Source: Candidatus Flemingiibacterium merdigallinarum
GTDB taxonomy: Bacteria; Bacillota; Clostridia; Oscillospirales; CAG-272
NCBI GenBank assembly: GCA_904386005.1
Contig: CAJFKR010000004.1
Coordinates: 1-64,000, forward strand
DNA: 64,000 nt
Direction: 5' to 3'
Shown: piece by piece, positions 22,238 to 31,260 of the stretch
How the letters are laid out: the number at the start of each line of letters is the position of its first letter
Position numbering within the stretch: position 1 is the first letter of the stretch
Notes under the pieces: model-generated
The model's database searches: none
What the model saw: only the letters and a program-made list of their open reading frames with translations
Told to the model about the DNA's origin: nothing
Made by a program: the position numbers and the translations under genes

Positions 22238-24355
22238 TTGAACAGCAAATACAGCGAATTGCAGCGGCAGCTGCGCGATACGCCGTTTTTCTGGTCGAGA
22301 CTCGGCTTCTGCTACGACCCGCCGCGCGCCGGAGCAGACGGAAAGCAAATTATTTTTTCGCGTGAATTCGATGAGTACCGCCGCGTTTGCCGTGACTTCG
22401 CCGACGCCGGAGTCAGGTGGCAGACGACGATACTGCACAGCGGGTGGGTCGCGGACGGCAAATACGACTACACGTTGTGCGACGAGACGCTCGACGCGCT
22501 GCTCGACGGCAATCCCGACATCATGTATATGCCGCGTGTCAAGCTGAATGTGCCGCCCGACTGGTGCAAAAATCATCCCGAGGACACGTTCGTCTACTAT
22601 TTCGGTCCGCGCGAAGCCGACGAGATCGCGGCTCTCGCCACTACCAACCGGCACGACTATTTCGGCGCGGACACAGACGGCTACTCGGTCAACGGCGGCA
22701 AGGGCGTCTGGCGCGACGACCGCGTCAACCGCGGCGGACTGATTGGGCTGCAAAGCTTTTCGTCCCGAAAGTGGGTCGAGGACGCGTCCGAGACGCTGCG
22801 CCGGCTGCTTTCGCACCTGTCGGAGTCGAAGTATCGAAAGCAGATTATCGGCGTTCACATCGCCTACGGTATGAGCGGCGAGACGAATGTCTGGGGCGTG
22901 TGGTCGCCGCTCGGCGACGGTCATCGCGGCGACTTCGGAATCAATGCCCGCCGGAACTTTGCCGAATACGGAATAGCCAAATACGGCAGTCGCGAAGCCG
23001 CGCTCGCCGCTTGGGGCGGCAGCCTCGAGCCGCCGACTCCGCTCGAGCGTGAAGCTCCGCGCGAGCGGCTTTGCGAGCTGTTCCTCTCGGGAAATCAGAA
23101 GGTGCGCGATTATTTTGAGTTCACGTCCGCGACCAACGCCGACGCGATTGAAGCTTACTGCAAAATTGTCAAGGACGCGTCGGGGCTGTTCGGACGGGAG
23201 CTCGCGGCAGGCGTGTTCTACGGCTATATGTACCTGCCGCAGTCGCCGAACGCCGGTCATCTCGCGATCGAGCGGCTGCTCGACTCGCCATATGTCGATT
23301 TCATGTCATCGCCAAAGGGCTACTTCCGCTGCCTTGCCGGAGACCCGGGCGGCGAGCAGGGACCGAGTGAGTCGATAGCCCTATCAAAGGTCTGGCTCGA
23401 CGAGATAGACAATCACACGCATCTCGACCGCCGACCCGAGGGACGCGCGCGCGACATGGCTGAATCAAAGACTCTGCTCTGGCGCGAAGCTACCAAGAAT
23501 CTGACGCACGGTCAGGGCTTCTGGTGGATGGACCTCGGCGAGGGCTGGTACGACGACCCCGAGCTGATGCATGAGATACGTAAGCTAACCGAGCTCGGCG
23601 AGCGCCTGAAGTCGAAGCCGCGCGAAAGTGCCGCCGAGATTCTGCTTGTCGTTGACGAAAAATCGCTCGGCTCAATGTCGATTTCCTACGGTCTCAATTA
23701 CATACTGATGTATCAGCTTCACAGCGAGCTCAAGCTCTGCGGCGCGCCGGTGGACACGCTGCGGTTTACTGACCTTTTCACACAGCCGCTCGACAACTAC
23801 AAGCTGATCGTGTTCGCGAACTGCTTCTGCGTCACGCCCGACGAGCGCGAGCGGCTGCTCGAATTGACCGCTGACAAGCTGGTCGTCTGGCACTATGCCG
23901 CCGGTATACTGTCGCCCGAATTCGACATTGACAATTACCGAAAGCTCACCGGCTTCAGACTGCGCGAGCTTGACCGCGGCGGCTCGGATTTCATCGGCTA
24001 TCCGCGAGAATATTACAACAACTCGCACCGCCGCGAGCCGAACGATTTCCCGCTGATCACATTTGACGCGGACGGCGCGGAGCTGCTTCACCGCTATCCG
24101 ACCGGAGAGCCGCTCGCGGCGATACGCGGCAGGGTCTGCGTGGCGGCGGCGCCGTGTCTTAATGCCGCCGATTTCCGTTCGCTCGCGCGCCGCGCGGGTG
24201 TCGACATCCTGTGCGACGCTGACTGCACGGTCTATGCCGACAACCGTATCGTCGGATTCTTTCCGAGGGAGGATTTCCACGGTCAGGTCAGGCTTGGCGG
24301 CAGGAAAATCGCCGCGGATATCCCCGCGCATGGCATGAAGGTTTTCGAGCTGTGA
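22238..24355 (+). CDS. GH42-like (beta-galactosidase-type) glycoside hydrolase
   Basis: A 705-residue cytoplasmic protein starting at a TTG preceded by AAGGAG; an overlapping ATG is in another frame. The N-terminal TIM-barrel region has WQTTILHSGW, MPRVKLNVPPDWCK, and HIAYGMSGETNVWG, whose Glu is a candidate acid/base. A FWWMDLGEGWYDDPE stretch near residue 430 follows. From about residue 460 a flavodoxin-like domain (AEILLVVDEKS... LIVFANCF... ERERLLEL) resembles the trimerisation domain of GH42 enzymes, and a short beta end follows. The family call rests on this layout and is less certain than a GH42 with clear motifs. Confidence 0.65.
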   Translation: MNSKYSELQRQLRDTPFFWSRLGFCYDPPRAGADGKQIIFSREFDEYRRVCRDFADAGVRWQTTILHSGWVADGKYDYTLCDETLDALLDGNPDIMYMPRVKLNVPPDWCKNHPEDTFVYYFGPREADEIAALATTNRHDYFGADTDGYSVNGGKGVWRDDRVNRGGLIGLQSFSSRKWVEDASETLRRLLSHLSESKYRKQIIGVHIAYGMSGETNVWGVWSPLGDGHRGDFGINARRNFAEYGIAKYGSREAALAAWGGSLEPPTPLEREAPRERLCELFLSGNQKVRDYFEFTSATNADAIEAYCKIVKDASGLFGRELAAGVFYGYMYLPQSPNAGHLAIERLLDSPYVDFMSSPKGYFRCLAGDPGGEQGPSESIALSKVWLDEIDNHTHLDRRPEGRARDMAESKTLLWREATKNLTHGQGFWWMDLGEGWYDDPELMHEIRKLTELGERLKSKPRESAAEILLVVDEKSLGSMSISYGLNYILMYQLHSELKLCGAPVDTLRFTDLFTQPLDNYKLIVFANCFCVTPDERERLLELTADKLVVWHYAAGILSPEFDIDNYRKLTGFRLRELDRGGSDFIGYPREYYNNSHRREPNDFPLITFDADGAELLHRYPTGEPLAAIRGRVCVAAAPCLNAADFRSLARRAGVDILCDADCTVYADNRIVGFFPREDFHGQVRLGGRKIAADIPAHGMKVFEL

Positions 24356-24462
24356 GCGGTCAGCCACGTCGATGAATGTCGAATTCTGCCGTAAAGCTAT
24401 GCGGCGCGGCAAAAATCGCGGAAATTATCCGAAAATCAACGAAATTGTCATAAAATCACGCG

Positions 24463-24488
24463 AAAATCCGTAATATTGCCGGATTTTT
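24463..24488 (+). terminator. Terminator after the GH42-like gene
   Basis: AAAATCCG (24463-24470) and CGGATTTT (24480-24487) with a 9-nt loop and a T run ending the stem. The symmetric A/T arms allow both directions. Confidence 0.7.
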
Positions 24489-24507
24489 CTAAATTTCGCG
24501 CGGGTTA

Positions 24508-24536
24508 TTGACAAAACGCGGATTTTGTGATATACT
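24508..24536 (+). promoter_or_regulatory. Promoter of the 24.5-kb noncoding RNA
   Basis: TTGACA (24508-24513), 17-bp spacer, TATACT (24531-24536). No open reading frame with a ribosome site follows within the next 500 nt, so it drives an RNA. Confidence 0.85.
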
Positions 24537-24542
24537 ATCTCC

Positions 24543-24908
24543 CGATGGGAAAATATGAGTCATTCATAGCTACCTCACTTTTTGAACCACCCGCTTCGCG
24601 GGGCAGGCTAACGGTGTGCCGGGTTCACTGCCGGACGGATGAGCTCCGTCGTTATTGATTGAGTTGAAAGCTCAAATTTTATAAGTTGGTTACTTTATAA
24701 CCGGTGCGGAGCGCGTGACGCGAAAAGCGTGCAACAAGCGCACAAAACTTGTGAAACGGTCAATAAGAGTAGTAAAAGTAGTATTGCTATATAGACTCTG
24801 AACCCAGAATATATAATCGGAGACTGAAATCTCCGGTTTCTGTCGGTCGATTGAACGATTAGAGCAGGCTTTGTACCAAACCGCGGTTATGGTATGAGCC
24901 TGCTTTTT
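24543..24908 (+). ncRNA. Unidentified structured noncoding RNA, about 365 nt
   Basis: It is bounded by a strong promoter and a clear terminator: AGCAGGCT (24863-24870) pairs with AGCCTGCT (24897-24904), extended by GTACC/GGTAT, then TTTTT. No coding frame of note. The ends of the core pair over long range: GAGT..TAGC..ACTTTT near 24555-24582 with AAAAGT..GCTA..ACTC near 24774-24806. Inside are several hairpins: CCCGC/GCGGG, GAACC/GGTTC enclosing it, GACGGA/TCCGTC, TTGAG/CTCAA and GGTTA/TAACC. Hallmarks of tmRNA, RNase P RNA and SRP RNA are absent. I cannot name it. A 6S-like RNA, or a large Firmicutes RNA class such as raiA or Clostridiales-1, should be tested. Confidence 0.75.
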
Positions 24909-24961
24909 GATTTGTCACGATATTGTAACGGGGACTTAAAGCTATTGATAATTTTGCGGTC

Positions 24962-25036
24962 TCACGAGATTTATAACTCCGCTATCACAATAATAATTTG
25001 CTTTGCAAAATCATCACATACATCAACAAGGAAAGG
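24962..25036 (+). repeat. Structured intergenic element, degenerate copy D
   Basis: It aligns to the full copies from CACGAG through TTTGCTTTGCAAA to ATCAACAAGGAAAGG. The outer stem arms have decayed, but the TTTGC/GCAAA hairpin is intact. It lies 35 nt before the 25071 gene. Confidence 0.6.
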
Positions 25037-25070
25037 CAGACCTTGCTAACGCAATGTCAGGGTCATATTT

Positions 25071-25367
25071 ATGATATCGAAAAAGCAGTATATAATAATA
25101 TTGATTTCAGTGCTTGTCGTTGTCTGGCTCTCCATGTTCGTGACTGATTTTATCTCGGCGTCGACGCTTCGCATGCCGAAGTTCGTTTTGCCAATTGATA
25201 CCGCTGACGACGGCGGGTCGGGAACTTATCTCGGTCTCGGCTACACAGTCGAGCTTGAGGTGCACCTTGACGTCGACTTAGGTGTAGTAATTGAAAAGAC
25301 TGAAATGAAAGTATTCGGCAGGGTCATTGCCTCGTCCGAGCGAGAAAGGGAGAGTATAGGATATTGA
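25071..25367 (+). CDS. Small single-pass membrane protein upstream of speA
   Basis: 98 residues: one N-terminal helix (YIIILISVLVVVWLSMFVTDF), then an extracytoplasmic tail with GTYLGLGYTVELEVHLD and EKTEMKVFGRVIAS. This GLGY-V-E....MKMFGKVI pattern recurs in small Firmicutes membrane proteins of unknown role. The start is ATG 25071 behind AGGG. Its TGA overlaps the TTG start of speA, so the two are translationally coupled and it may be the first gene of the polyamine operon. Confidence 0.75.
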   Translation: MISKKQYIIILISVLVVVWLSMFVTDFISASTLRMPKFVLPIDTADDGGSGTYLGLGYTVELEVHLDVDLGVVIEKTEMKVFGRVIASSERERESIGY

Positions 25368-26821
25368 ATAGATTTATTTTGAATCAGAATCGCGCGCCGG
25401 TTTACGAGGCGCTTGAAGAATTCCGGAACGCACGCGTCGTGCCGTTCGACGTGCCGGGACACAAACACGGTCGCGGTAATCCCGAGCTCACCGCCTTTCT
25501 CGGCAAGCAGTGCGTCGAGGTCGACGTCAACTCGATGAAACCGCTCGACAACCTCTGTCACCCGATTTCGGTCATCAAGGAGGCCGAGGAGCTGGCAGCC
25601 GACGCGTTCGGAGCGGCTAACGCCTTTTTCATGGTCGGCGGCACAACGAGCGCCGTGCAGAGCATGGTTTTGTCTGTCACAAAGGCGGGCGATGAGATAA
25701 TCCTGCCGCGCAACGTACACCGCAGCGTGATTAACGCGCTGGTACTCAACGGCGCGATTCCGGTCTATGTCAACCCCGACGTCGAGCCGAACCTCGGCAT
25801 CTCGCTCGGTATGCGCCGTGAGGACGTCGAGCGCGCGGTGCGTGAGCACCCGAAGGCTCGGGCGATACTCGTCAACAACCCGACCTACTACGGAATATGC
25901 AGCGACCTCAAGGCGATAGTCGAGCTCGCGCACCAAAACGGTATGTACTGCCTTGCCGACGAGGCGCACGGCACGCATTTCTATTTTGGAGAGGATATGC
26001 CGATTTCGGCTATGGCCGCCGGAGCGGACATGGCGGCGGTCAGTATGCACAAGAGCGGCGGCTCGCTGACCCAGTCGAGTCTGCTGCTGCTCGGTGAGGG
26101 CATCGACCCGGGCTATGTGCGGCAGATTATAAACCTGACACAGACGACGTCGGGCAGCTATCTTCTGATGAGCAGTCTCGATATCAGCCGTCGCAACCTC
26201 GCGCTGCGCGGCCGGCAGGTGTTCGCGCACGTCGCCGACCTCGCGCGCTACGCGCGCGAGGAGATAAACTTCGTCGGCGGCTTCTACGCGTTCGGCGACG
26301 AGCTTATCAACGGCAACTCGGTGTACGCATTCGACACGACCAAGCTGTCGGTCCATACGCTCGACGTCGGACTCGCCGGAATCGAGGTCTACGACCTGCT
26401 GCGTGACGAGTACGACATACAGATTGAATTCGGCGACATCGGCAACATCCTCGCGTATATCTCAATGGGCGACCGTATGCCCGAGCTCGAGCGTCTGATA
26501 AGCGCGCTTGCCGAAATCCGCCGCCGCTTCGAGCGGGACAAGGTCGGACTTCTGTCGCAGGAATACATCGAGCCGCAGGTCGTGATGAGCCCGCAGCAGG
26601 CCTTCTACGCCGAAAAGGAGAGCCTGCCGCTCGAGGAGACGCGCGGACGGGTTTCGAGCGAGTTCGTGATGTGCTACCCGCCCGGAATCCCGGTGCTCGC
26701 GCCGGGCGAGGTAATAACCGACAAGGTCATCGAATACATCAACTACGCAAAGGAAAAGGGATGCAGCATGACCGGTCCGCAGGACGAGACGATATCGCGG
26801 CTCAATGTATTGGTACATTGA
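25364..26821 (+). CDS. speA: Orn/Lys/Arg decarboxylase, probable arginine decarboxylase
   Basis: A 485-residue PLP enzyme of the short Bacillus SpeA/YaaO type. It begins APVYEALEEF and has VPFDVPGHKHGRGNPEL. PLP-site motifs are MVGGTTSAVQSM, LADEAHGTHFYF and SMHKSGGSLTQSSLL with the Schiff-base Lys230. The C-terminal region (YPPGIPVLAPGEVI, near residue 440) is the family signature. The inferred reaction is arginine to agmatine, because agmatinase and aminopropyl genes follow. It starts at a TTG overlapping the previous stop; GAAAGGGAG lies about 12 nt upstream. Lysine or ornithine specificity cannot be excluded by sequence alone. Confidence 0.9.
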   Translation: MNRFILNQNRAPVYEALEEFRNARVVPFDVPGHKHGRGNPELTAFLGKQCVEVDVNSMKPLDNLCHPISVIKEAEELAADAFGAANAFFMVGGTTSAVQSMVLSVTKAGDEIILPRNVHRSVINALVLNGAIPVYVNPDVEPNLGISLGMRREDVERAVREHPKARAILVNNPTYYGICSDLKAIVELAHQNGMYCLADEAHGTHFYFGEDMPISAMAAGADMAAVSMHKSGGSLTQSSLLLLGEGIDPGYVRQIINLTQTTSGSYLLMSSLDISRRNLALRGRQVFAHVADLARYAREEINFVGGFYAFGDELINGNSVYAFDTTKLSVHTLDVGLAGIEVYDLLRDEYDIQIEFGDIGNILAYISMGDRMPELERLISALAEIRRRFERDKVGLLSQEYIEPQVVMSPQQAFYAEKESLPLEETRGRVSSEFVMCYPPGIPVLAPGEVITDKVIEYINYAKEKGCSMTGPQDETISRLNVLVH

Positions 26822-26863
26822 ACTCAATGTCATGACACATTGATATGAAAGGAAATTATCGGA

Positions 26864-27715
26864 ATGGATTTATGGTTCAGTGAAAATCATACGGAAAATG
26901 TAAAATTCAGTCTCAGAGTCGAGCAGCAGCTGTTTTCGGCGGAGAGTGAATATCAGCGTATAGATGTGTTTGACAGCATGGAGTTCGGGCGTGTGCTCGT
27001 GCTCGACGGAGACATAATGCTGACCGAGCGCGACGAGTTCGTATACGACGAGATGATAACTCACGTGCCGATGGCGGTTCACCCGAACCCGAAGAATATA
27101 CTTGTCATCGGCGTCGGCGACGGCGGAGTCGTCAAGGAGCTGACGAGATACGATTCGGTCGAGTCGATAGACCTTGTCGAGATGGACCCGATGGTAGTCG
27201 AGGTCTGCAAGAAGTATCTGCCGAACAACGCCTGTCAGCTCGACAATCCGCGCGTGCATATCCACTACGAGAACGGACTCAAGTTCCTGCGCCGGCATGA
27301 GAGCGAGTACGATATAATCATAATCGACAGCCCCGACCCGTTCGGACCGTCCGAGGGACTGTTCACCAAGGAGTTCTACGGCAGCTGCTACAAGGCACTG
27401 AAGGACGACGGAATCATGGTCAACCAGCAGGGAAGTCCGTTCTACCGCGAGGACGCGGTCGCGATGCAGCGCAGTCACCGCCGCATCGCCAGCACCTTCC
27501 CGATAGCGCGCACCTATCAGGCGCATATTCCGAGCTACGCCGCCGGTTACTGGCTGTTCGGCTTCGCGAGCAAGAAATATCATCCGATAAACAGCTTTGA
27601 CGGCGCGAAGTGGCGCTCGCTCGGACTCAAGACGAAATACTACACGACAAAGCTGCACATAGGCTGCTTCTATCTGCCGGCCTTCCTTGAGGAAATGCTG
27701 CTGAGTGTTGAGTGA
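26864..27715 (+). CDS. speE: Polyamine aminopropyltransferase (spermidine synthase)
   Basis: A 283-residue cytoplasmic SpeE. DLWFSENHTENVKFSLRVE leads into the beta N-domain. The decarboxylated-AdoMet-binding site is ILVIGVGDGGVVKELTRY (about residue 80-97), and IIIDSPDPFGPSEGLF (about 150-165) has the catalytic Asp and the DP-GP loop. The family adds an aminopropyl group from decarboxylated AdoMet to putrescine. It lies 42 nt after speA with GAAAGGAA before ATG. No AdoMet decarboxylase (speD) is in the window, and the same operon also encodes the carboxyspermidine route, so its acceptor or donor use is worth testing. Confidence 0.92.
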   Translation: MDLWFSENHTENVKFSLRVEQQLFSAESEYQRIDVFDSMEFGRVLVLDGDIMLTERDEFVYDEMITHVPMAVHPNPKNILVIGVGDGGVVKELTRYDSVESIDLVEMDPMVVEVCKKYLPNNACQLDNPRVHIHYENGLKFLRRHESEYDIIIIDSPDPFGPSEGLFTKEFYGSCYKALKDDGIMVNQQGSPFYREDAVAMQRSHRRIASTFPIARTYQAHIPSYAAGYWLFGFASKKYHPINSFDGAKWRSLGLKTKYYTTKLHIGCFYLPAFLEEMLLSVE

Positions 27716-27716
27716 A

Positions 27717-27853
27717 GTTTGAAATTGATTTCAGACTGCGAGTTTTGTGACTACGCGGTCAAAGACCGCGATATGCTTTGCCAACCGTCATAAAACATCG
27801 ACAAAGGAAAGGATACTTTGCGGTCGCCAAGGATACTTTGCTGTCGCAAAGTC
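27717..27853 (+). repeat. Structured intergenic element, copy B, with start-codon hairpin
   Basis: Palindrome GTTTGAAAT/ATTTCAGAC (27717-27736). The outer stem GTTTTGTGAC/GTCATAAAAC (27742-27751, 27787-27796) encloses CGCGGTC/GACCGCG (27754-27770), and GGAAAGG follows (27806-27812). GGATACTTTGC then occurs twice, the second time as hairpin CTTTGC/GCAAAG (27836-27851), ending two bases before the ATG of speB. The same final hairpin-TC-ATGG arrangement occurs before ygiQ. Confidence 0.8.
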
Positions 27854-28741
27854 ATGGTCAATATAATGCTTAATAAAAATATCGAAACCTTTATCGGCTG
27901 CGACGCCGAATTCGACGAGGCGAAAATTGTGCTGTACGGCGCGCCGTTCGACTCGACCACGAGCTACCGCCCGGGCGCGCGCTTCGGTCCGTCGGCGATA
28001 CGCCATGAAAGTTATGGAATTGAGACCTATTCGCCCTACCAAAAGCGCGACCTCACCGATATAAACGTGTTCGACAGCGGCGACCTCGAGCTCTGCTTCG
28101 GCGATACCGCCGCCGCTCTGGCTGTGATCGGCGAGAGGGCGGACGAGATAGTGTCGACCGGAAAAATTCCGTTGCTGCTCGGCGGAGAGCATCTGGTCAC
28201 GCTGCCGCCGGTCGAACGGCTGTACAAGCAGTATCCCGACCTGCACGTGATACACTTCGACGCACACGCCGACCTGCGCGACGATTACCTCGGCGCGCGT
28301 CTGTCGCACGCCTGCGTGCTGCGGAGAATACACGACCTTGTCGGTGACGGCAGAATACACCAGTTCGGCATACGCAGCGGCGAGAGGGGCGAATTTGAGT
28401 TCGCGGCGGCTCACACCGATATGCACCCACTGACGCTCGGCGGCTTCGGCGAGGTTCGCGCCGCGCTCGACGAGATGACAACGCTGCTCGCCGGACGGAA
28501 AGTCCCGGTCTATGTCACGGTCGACCTTGATGTGCTTGACCCGTCCGAGTTCCCGGGAACGGGCACGCCCGAAGCCGGCGGAATCAGCTTTCTCGAGCTG
28601 CTCGACTCGCTCATTATGATTGCGTCTCGGCTGAATGTCGTCGGTGCGGATTTGGTCGAGCTCGCGCCGAGTCTCGACAGCTCGGGTAGGTCGACCGCGC
28701 TCGCCTGCAAGCTGCTGCGCGAGGTGCTGCTCGCGCTGTGA
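27854..28741 (+). CDS. speB: Agmatinase
   Basis: A 295-residue arginase-family enzyme that hydrolyses agmatine to putrescine and urea. Manganese-binding motifs are all present: LLGGEHLVTL, HFDAHADLRDDY and TVDLDVLDPSEFPGTGTPEAGG. GAPFDSTTSYRPGARFGPSAIR is the substrate-loop region. I chose ATG 27854 because the hairpin-TC-ATGG context is conserved before ygiQ; ATG 27866 is an alternative 12 nt on. The upstream element could sequester the ribosome site. Its place between speE and the carboxynorspermidine genes completes arginine to putrescine. Confidence 0.92.
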   Translation: MVNIMLNKNIETFIGCDAEFDEAKIVLYGAPFDSTTSYRPGARFGPSAIRHESYGIETYSPYQKRDLTDINVFDSGDLELCFGDTAAALAVIGERADEIVSTGKIPLLLGGEHLVTLPPVERLYKQYPDLHVIHFDAHADLRDDYLGARLSHACVLRRIHDLVGDGRIHQFGIRSGERGEFEFAAAHTDMHPLTLGGFGEVRAALDEMTTLLAGRKVPVYVTVDLDVLDPSEFPGTGTPEAGGISFLELLDSLIMIASRLNVVGADLVELAPSLDSSGRSTALACKLLREVLLAL

Positions 28742-28866
28742 TCGGTGCTCTGTCACTGTCTGTACTACTGCGTGAGAGGGGATATTGATTGCCGGTACAT
28801 CGTTTAAGTTATATATCATAATTTCAAATTAAAATAATCCAGAAATTTCTACAGGAGGATAATATA

Positions 28867-30121
28867 ATGTCAAGAGTACTCATCATTGGCTGCGGCGCGG
28901 TCGCGAGCGTGGCTATACACAAGTGCTGCGCTTTGCCCGAGGTGTTTTCGGAAATCTGCATCGCGAGCCGTCACCGCGAAAACTGCGAGGCGCTCGCAGA
29001 GAAGCTGCGTCCGAACACGAAAACAATAATCACGACCGCGAAGGTCGACGCGTCGATAACATCGGACGTCGTGCGTCTCATCAAGGATTACAAGCCCGAG
29101 CTGGTCATGAACATCGCGCTGCCCTATCAGGACCTCACCATCATGGACGCCTGCCTCGAGTGCGGAGTCAACTACATGGACACCGCGAACTACGAGCCGG
29201 AGGACACCAACGACCCTGCGTGGAGAACAGTATATGAAAAGCGCTGCCAAGGGCTTCTCGGCATATTTCGATTATTCGTGGCAGTGGGCATACCGCGAGC
29301 GCTTCGAAAAAGCCGGACTCTGTGCTCTGCTCGGCAGCGGCTTCGACCCCGGCGTCACACAGGCATACTGCGCGTACGCGAAGAAGCATCAGTTCGACAC
29401 CATCGACACTATCGACATCCTCGACTGCAACGGCGGCGACCACGGCTATCCGTTCGCGACCAACTTCAATCCCGAGATAAACCTGCGCGAGGTCAGCGCG
29501 CCCGGAAGCTATATTGAGAACGGCAAGTGGATAGAGGTTCCGGCGATGAGCATCAAGCGTGAGTATTTATTCGACGGAGTCGGCAAAAAGGATATGTACC
29601 TCTTGCACCACGAGGAGCTCGAGTCGCTCGCGGTCAACATCCCGGGTGTTAAGCGCCTGCGTTTCTTCATGACGTTCGGTCAGAGCTATCTCGAACATAT
29701 GCGTTGTCTCGAGGATGTGGGAATGCTGTCGACGACGCCAATAAACTACAACGGAGTTGAGATAGTGCCGATACAGTTCTTAAAGGCATTGCTGCCCGAC
29801 CCGTCGACGCTCGGTCCGCGCACTCACGGCAAGACAAATATCGGCTGCATATTCAGCGGCACCAAGGATGGCAAGCCGAAGCACTACTATATTTATAACA
29901 TCTGCGACCATCAGGAGTGCTATCGCGAGGTCGGCTCGCAGGCGGTCGCCTACACTACCGGCGTACCGGCAATGTGCGGCGCGCTGATGATGCTCAACGG
30001 AAAATGGAACAAGCCGGGCGTATACACGGTCGAACAGTTCGATCCCGATCCCTTCCTCGAAGCGCTGTCGACGTACGGTCTGCCGTATAAGGAGAGCTTC
30101 GAGCCGCTCATGGTAGACTGA
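28867..30121 (+). CDS. Carboxynorspermidine/carboxyspermidine dehydrogenase, frameshifted
   Basis: A saccharopine-dehydrogenase-like enzyme that joins putrescine and aspartate semialdehyde reductively. The N-terminal Rossmann part (VLIIGCGAVASVAIHKC... NIALPYQDLTIMDACLECGVNYMDTANYEPED) is in one frame to VYEKRC near 29250. The rest (KGFSAYFDYSWQWAYRERFEKAG... GSGFDPGVTQAY... to the stop) is in the +1 frame. One extra base, or two missing, near 29248-29254 explains it. Rejoined, the protein is about 417 residues, normal for the family, with no other damage. An ACAGGAGG site precedes the start. Its TGA overlaps the nspC ATG. Both halves look well conserved, so sequencing error or a very recent mutation is likely. 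Confidence 0.85.
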
Positions 30122-31260
30122 TGAGACGCGACGAGCTGCGAACCCCCTGCTTTGTCATAGAGGAAGCCAAGCTCCGCCGCAACGGGCGGATTTTAGCCGA
30201 GCTGCGGCGGAATACCGGCTGCAGGATACTGCTCGCGCAGAAGTGCTTCTCGAATTGGGAGCTCTACCCGCTGCTCGCCGAGTATCTCGACGGCAGCGAG
30301 GCGAGCGGATTATATGAGGCGAGACTCGGACACGAGAAATTCCCGGGCGAGTGCCATGTCTTTTCGGCGGCGTTCCGCGACGACGAGTTCGACGAGCTGC
30401 TCGGTTATGCCGACCACATCGTGTTTAACAGTCTGCGCCAATTGCAGAAATTCGGAGAGCGTGCTAAAACTGCCGGTCTGAGCGTCGGACTGAGGGTGAA
30501 TCCCGAACATTCGACGCAGGTCGGACATGAGATATACGACCCCTGCGCGCCGGGCAGCCGGCTCGGCGTCACCGCGGACGAGCTGTCGGAGGGCGGGGAA
30601 CTGCTCAGACTGCTCGATGGCATACACTTTCACACGCTCTGCGAGCAGGACAGCGATTCGCTCGAGGAGACGCTCGACGCGGTCGAGGAGAAGTTCGGAT
30701 ATCTTTTCGGTTCGCTCAAATGGATAAACTTCGGCGGCGGGCACCACATCACGCGCGAGGGCTACGACCTCATGCGCTTGGAGAGCTGCATACTGCGCAT
30801 ACGCGACAAATACGGGCTTGACGTATACCTTGAGCCGGGAGAGGCGGTCGCGCTGAACGCGGGAGTGCTGATTACGAGCGTACTTGATGTGTCGCCGTCC
30901 GACCGCAAGCCGCTGCCGTACGCGATACTCGACACTTCGGCGGCCTGCCATATGCCGGATGTGCTCGAGATGCCCTATCGACCGCCGCTCTTTAATTCGG
31001 GCGAGCCGGACGAATACAGCTACACCTACCGGCTCGGCTCGCAGACCTGTCTCGCCGGCGACATCATCGGCGACTACAGCTTCGAGCACGAGCTGCACGA
31101 GGGCGACCGTCTGACCTTCGGCGACATGGCGATATACACGATGGTCAAGACGAACACGTTCAACGGTATGCCGCTGCCCGACATTTATGTCGAGCACGAG
31201 GACGGCGAATGCGAGCTGCTGCGCAGGTTTGGGTACGACGATTTCTTCGGCAGACTCTGA
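30121..31260 (+). CDS. nspC: Carboxynorspermidine decarboxylase
   Basis: A 379-residue fold-type III PLP enzyme of the alanine-racemase/DAP-decarboxylase class. TPCFVIEEAKLRRN is followed by the PLP Lys in ILLAQKCFSNW (about residue 41). HVFSAAFRDDEF, LRVNPEHSTQVG, DGIHFHTLCEQ and WINFGGGHHIT follow, and the EPGEAV phosphate loop is near residue 240. It decarboxylates carboxyspermidine or carboxynorspermidine, the last step. ATG overlaps the previous TGA (TGATG), so both enzymes are coupled. The expected product is spermidine, since putrescine is the diamine made upstream. Confidence 0.93.
   Translation: MRRDELRTPCFVIEEAKLRRNGRILAELRRNTGCRILLAQKCFSNWELYPLLAEYLDGSEASGLYEARLGHEKFPGECHVFSAAFRDDEFDELLGYADHIVFNSLRQLQKFGERAKTAGLSVGLRVNPEHSTQVGHEIYDPCAPGSRLGVTADELSEGGELLRLLDGIHFHTLCEQDSDSLEETLDAVEEKFGYLFGSLKWINFGGGHHITREGYDLMRLESCILRIRDKYGLDVYLEPGEAVALNAGVLITSVLDVSPSDRKPLPYAILDTSAACHMPDVLEMPYRPPLFNSGEPDEYSYTYRLGSQTCLAGDIIGDYSFEHELHEGDRLTFGDMAIYTMVKTNTFNGMPLPDIYVEHEDGECELLRRFGYDDFFGRL

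Follow-up and report, generated by a model that had tools for sequence, protein, structure and literature searches.

A conserved leader RNA of polyamine operons: a widespread class of candidate polyamine riboswitches

The RNA specified by positions 24543 to 24908 of the window, the 64,000-nucleotide stretch of Candidatus Flemingiibacterium merdigallinarum DNA analyzed here, is very probably the 5′ leader of the polyamine operon that follows it and a cis-acting attenuator of that operon's transcription. It likely belongs to a widespread class of candidate polyamine riboswitches for which spermidine is the most probable ligand, and because close relatives precede genes for making or importing spermidine in many bacteria, the switch appears to be both widespread and undescribed. 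Its conserved structure, gene association, terminator, core-terminator complementarity, and covariation can be read directly from the sequences, while recognition of a polyamine and the OFF direction of the switch are inferred from them. Polyamines are among the most abundant cellular cations. The initial annotation had treated the RNA as free-standing; we find instead a leader whose terminator serves as its switch.

Leader boundaries and downstream genes

The leader and its signals, all on the forward strand, are as follows.

24508 to 24536, +: promoter TTGACA-17-TATACT, matching 11 of 12 positions in a consensus scan
24543 to 24908, +: whole leader, comprising sensor core and transcription terminator (covariance model and folding z score)
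24863 to 24908, +: intrinsic terminator, AGCAGGCTTTGTACC/GGTATGAGCCTGCT followed by a T-run, about -24 kcal/mol

Both the consensus promoter and the strong terminator had been claimed at these positions and were recovered here, and an RNA start near 24543 is expected from the position of the promoter. The folding energy of 24543 to 24908 was lower than that of all 100 shuffles (z -4.1). The earlier statement that the region lacks a coding frame also stood: the sole frame spanning the 5′ part (24527 to 24658, 43 amino acids) opens before the point where the RNA probably starts, and stop codons interrupt all three frames of the 3′ core (24652 to 24800). For both reasons, and with no conserved frame found, a leader peptide is unlikely.

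Downstream, five genes make up the proposed regulated operon.

25364 to 31260, +: proposed regulated operon (Pfam and NCBIfam)
from 25364, +: Orn/Lys/Arg decarboxylase (Pfam PF01276, above cut-off)
from 26864, +: spermidine synthase, speE (NCBIfam, above cut-off)
from 27818, +: agmatinase, speB (NCBIfam agmatinase, above cut-off)
from 28867, +: carboxynorspermidine synthase, frame-shifted (NF043000 over its second half)
from 30121, +: nspC (NCBIfam, above cut-off)

Gene identities were tested with NCBIfam and Pfam on the proteins of the window and on one speD and one potA example from other loci; the latter two passed curated cut-offs as adenosylmethionine decarboxylase and spermidine/putrescine ATP-binding protein. 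The RNA had been placed between a glycoside hydrolase and the polyamine operon. The operon was confirmed, but the 705-amino-acid upstream protein (22238 to 24355) had no Pfam match at E values up to 0.001. The carboxynorspermidine synthase gene, a single frame in relatives, is split here into 28867 to 29517 and 29234 to 30121 with an offset that is not a multiple of three, owing either to misassembly or to a genuine disruption of the gene. Between leader and decarboxylase lies a 98-amino-acid, membrane protein-like frame (25071 to 25367), which matched no Pfam family and, among the 80 named loci that were tested, had no counterpart 3′ of the RNA.

The association with polyamine genes extends to every relative for which it could be scored. 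Of the distinct loci, 130 had 250 bases of flank or more, and in every one of them the first recognized gene after the RNA was a polyamine gene: an Orn/Lys/Arg decarboxylase, heading an operon, in 48 (47 plus the window's own), speD in 43, the spermidine importer gene potA in 20, and carboxynorspermidine synthase in 19. A conserved, structured leader thus stands before one functional class of genes, as is expected of a riboswitch. At one potA locus, within the stretch 45 to 840 downstream of the RNA, a small protein resembling P-II nitrogen regulators when read by eye is encoded ahead of potA in the importer operon.

Conserved core and its relatives

The conserved core spans some 240 to 250 nt (about 24555 to 24800), and the aligned RNAs share the long runs GGCCAUACGGACAGCCGGGU, UUAUUGAUUGAG, UUUUAUAAGUUGG, CUUGUGAAACGGUCAAUAAGAGUAGUAAAAGUA, and GCUAUAUAGACUC. 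Its elements are listed below.

24566 to 24573, +: 5′ strand of P0, a long-range helix (AUAGC.UAC) whose partner is 24781 to 24790 (covariation test)
24584 to 24634, +: first domain, with GAACC/GGUUC, the hairpin CCCGC/GCGGG, then GGCUAACGGUGUGCC...CUGCCGG; equivalent of Rfam RF02440 (28.1 bits)
24634 to 24650, +: variable hairpin GACGG/CCGUC, covarying in relatives (helices 4 and 5)
24652 to 24766, +: central domain, P1 to P5 (RNAalifold and pair counts)
24652-24658/24760-24766, +: P1, closing P2 to P5
24659-24663/24671-24675, +: P2
24677-24687/24746-24756, +: P3
24688-24692/24698-24702, +: P4
24704-24708/24739-24743, +: P5
24766 to 24799, +: hairpin P6 (AGAGU/ACUCU), with the P0 3′ strand in its loop; U-A to C-G changes in relatives

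The structure was obtained by RNAalifold from a MAFFT alignment of 12 relatives and contains 57 pairs, 17 of which show compensatory changes among the 12. Across 100 copies, 96.5% of pair cells were paired, compared with 35 to 41% when partners were slid by one to three columns, and both sides had changed in 40 of the 57 pairs, although this count leans toward the model because the 100-copy alignment was fitted to it. Homologues with covariation, to which the initial annotation had looked for support, are therefore in hand, and the internal hairpins that it noted are present, most of them with covariation.

The annotation had also proposed long-range pairing of the core ends through three segments, of which one survived. 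TAGC/GCTA (24566 to 24573 with 24781 to 24790) is real and conserved with covariation, its conserved form being P0. In an alignment-free test, P0 strands scored 14.6 with their own partners against 11.5 ± 0.31 with permuted ones (n = 80 sequences), a signal that persisted among the 19 sequences with less than 70% identity and is exemplified by the pairs GCAAAUAUU/AAUAUUUGC, GCAGAUAAU/AUUAUUUGC, and GCGAUUAU/AUAAUUGC. Since the 3′ strand of P0 lies within the P6 hairpin loop, the two together form a pseudoknot. The remaining proposals fell away: ACTC pairs better with the local AGAGT at 24766 to 24770 (P6) than with the 5′ GAGT, and AAAAGT is nearly invariant while its supposed partner ACTTTT varies freely, so that this pairing is not conserved. 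The loop strand UUGCU of P6 (24775 to 24788) has two alternative partners, the 5′ strand in P0 or AGUA in the same hairpin, and both pairings covary, suggesting a second conformational choice within the core.

Relatives are numerous in Bacillota. A nucleotide search of 39 related genomes found 24652 to 24799 conserved across the order. One distant copy was located on a Paenibacillus replicon. With a covariance model built from 12 sequences, full-length matches were found in 41 of 291 genomes of the window's class, 24 of 399 genomes of a phylum sample, and 29 of 301 genomes of the class of another genome (G391), always one per genome. The window's genome likewise has a single copy, at 24537 to 24804 (198.8 bits, E 9e-53; this copy was one of the 12 seeds). 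The core is conserved in Clostridia, Bacilli, and Negativicutes. Scanning named genomes with a 29-base pattern from the first domain yielded at least 80 loci, with Paenibacillus, Fontibacillus, Bacillus, Neobacillus, Kurthia, Blautia, Faecalibacterium, Gemmiger, Flavonifractor, Acidaminococcus, Phascolarctobacterium, and others among the matches listed, and all 80 loci among those listed also matched the full-length model. A divergent full-length copy occurs in four genomes of one genus, probably Streptococcus, before genes in the order decarboxylase-speE-synthase. Two copies lie on contigs binned as Spirochaetes and Synergistaceae (L116 and L140), which reflects either spread outside Bacillota or wrong binning. 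As to a mobile or viral origin, no phage record matched, and the two viral contigs in which an 18-base pattern had matched failed to align with the core.

Known families were sought with Rfam 15, the search that the initial annotation had recommended. Across the whole window no family reached its gathering score, T-box, tmRNA, RNase P, SRP, 6S, raiA, and other large RNAs included, in agreement with the earlier exclusion of known large RNAs. The lone notable lead in a permissive scan was RF02440 (SpF59_sRNA, or ldcC RNA) at 28.1 bits (E = 0.0066), below its gathering cut-off of 37.2 bits; ctRNA_pT181 and P13 (E of 5 to 8) were dismissed as chance matches. The RF02440 lead mattered because the downstream genes start with an Orn/Lys/Arg decarboxylase. 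Relatives scored up to 73.7 bits, and in all 10 genomes of a 300-genome sample that exceeded the cut-off, the match fell within a copy that the full-length model also identified. One of the four divergent-copy genomes, probably a Streptococcus, likewise combines an RF02440 match (39.8 bits) with a full-length match. The match in the window is therefore taken as genuine and RF02440 as a fragment of the class. The RNA thus has no confident Rfam match, yet part of it has a name already, the first domain being catalogued as the 54-nt RF02440.

A terminator and a predicted antiterminator

Of 130 loci, 121 have an intrinsic terminator no more than 300 nt from the core, compared with 13 to 17 in shuffles and with 11 of 120 upstream control stretches. 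The nine loci without a terminator by the criterion used may include some that act on translation and some that are divergent. Two segments of the window are central to the proposed switch.

24742 to 24752, +: antiterminator core strand ACAAAACUUGU, common to P3 and P5, pairing with 24864 to 24874 with one A-C mismatch
24864 to 24874, +: segment of the terminator 5′ arm, GCAGGCUUUGU, complementary to 24742 to 24752

Across relatives, the invariant core strand (A)CUUGUG, itself the 3′ strand of P3, finds its complement in the terminator 5′ arm (13.7, versus 9.5 ± 0.18 for shuffled arms), and CAAG or CAGG occurs in 100 of 120 arms, versus 16.7 in shuffled arms, the anchors of all the terminator tests having been picked after the pattern was seen. 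The complementarity was absent from the terminator 3′ arm and from five other core segments. A strictly contiguous extension of the CUUGUG/CARG pairing showed no covariation (z -0.16); once a short bulge was permitted, the 3′ side of P5, which precedes CUUGUG, covaried with the remainder of the arm (14.5 versus 11.8 permuted, n = 102). Both the complementarity and the bulged extension persisted among representatives with less than 70% core identity. The predicted antiterminator would thus compete with helices of the core, as in an OFF riboswitch, and the terminator, mostly placed between core and first gene and complementary to the core, is accordingly read as the switch. For the window's own leader, the P3 fold and the antiterminator fold have nearly the same energy while the terminator is incomplete (-100.1 versus -100.7 kcal/mol), and once its 3′ arm is made the terminator fold is preferred (-121.7 versus -107.2 kcal/mol). 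An expression platform that is mutually exclusive with the sensor, the other hallmark of a riboswitch, is thereby predicted.

In the model that we propose, transcription would begin near 24543, and an abundant polyamine would bind the core and stabilize it, P3 and P5 included, so that the terminator at 24863 to 24908 forms and transcription ends before the genes. Under polyamine scarcity, ACAAAACUUGU (24742 to 24752), made up of P5 and P3 3′ strands, would instead pair with the terminator 5′ arm (24864 to 24874), and the resulting antiterminator would let polymerase read into the operon.

That the RNA is instead a trans-acting small RNA, its product being the terminated transcript of about 365 nt, is highly improbable. 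Its own promoter and strong terminator would suit such a role, and SpF59 is catalogued in this way, pneumococcal F59 (82 nt) having been mapped between SP0915 and SP0916 and listed as an sRNA (PMC3395615). However, a free RNA would not be expected to precede polyamine genes in the same orientation at every one of 130 loci, nor to have a terminator complementary to its own core, and F59 itself lies within the intergenic stretch before SP0916. Alternatively, the leader may attenuate the operon yet sense polyamine indirectly, through an RNA-binding protein or through a translated leader peptide of the kind found in the enterobacterial speF leader. A terminator with an antiterminator would suit any attenuator, but we consider indirect sensing unlikely: some 250 nt of near-invariant, covarying structure far exceeds what a protein-dependent attenuator site usually needs, and the stop codons of the 3′ core and the early start of the one 5′ frame speak against a peptide. 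Direct sensing of a polyamine by the leader is therefore the probable reading.

As for the ligand, spermidine is where the decarboxylase, SpeD/SpeE, the carboxynorspermidine route, and PotABCD all converge, and on balance we favor it. S-adenosylmethionine is disfavored, since neither the carboxynorspermidine route nor PotABCD uses it. A neighboring metabolite (putrescine, agmatine, cadaverine, decarboxylated S-adenosylmethionine, or methylthioadenosine) is a less likely ligand, although still a more plausible alternative than indirect sensing. The products of the decarboxylase and agmatinase genes act near putrescine and agmatine, putrescine is also imported by PotABCD transporters, and the fit of putrescine, agmatine, or some other polyamine would be almost as good as that of spermidine; ligands derived from S-adenosylmethionine would leave the 19 carboxynorspermidine-route loci and the 20 importer loci unexplained.

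Comparison with known polyamine-associated RNAs

If spermidine is the ligand, one RNA would control two routes of spermidine synthesis as well as import, suggesting that polyamine control in gut bacteria can run through a single RNA. The presence of the element in gut Clostridia, Bacillus, Paenibacillus, and probably Streptococcus makes the question of a further polyamine riboswitch directly testable, and an orphan Streptococcus sRNA is recast as a leader fragment with a proposed function. The element is undescribed in the open-access literature searched, and it may have been named earlier elsewhere.

Several known RNAs invite comparison. RF02440, typed as an sRNA of Streptococcus, corresponds in its 54 nt to the first domain of the present RNA, but it ends there, without P0, the central domain, P6, an antiterminator, or an assigned function. 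The speF motif, the odc1 and potE motifs, and the Haemophilus/Pasteurella potABCD ABC-leader are likewise RNA elements proposed to control polyamine genes; they are reported, however, from Proteobacteria or Veillonella, and no Rfam model matches here.

The closest functional parallel is the published spermidine riboswitch (Salvail et al. 2023), a rare SAM-I variant and the only validated polyamine riboswitch class that we found, whose authors held that more classes surely await discovery (PMC10853860). Like the present RNA, it lies upstream of polyamine genes, including ldcC, speB, and speE, and turns them off by transcription termination (PMC10853860), the direction proposed for the present RNA as well. 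It is built on the SAM-I aptamer, whereas the structure of the present RNA is unrelated, and SAM-I and other SAM families had no match at E values up to 10 over 24300 to 25100. On balance, the present RNA may well represent a second spermidine riboswitch class in Bacillota, independent in structure and much more widely distributed, of which RF02440 would be a mistyped fragment.
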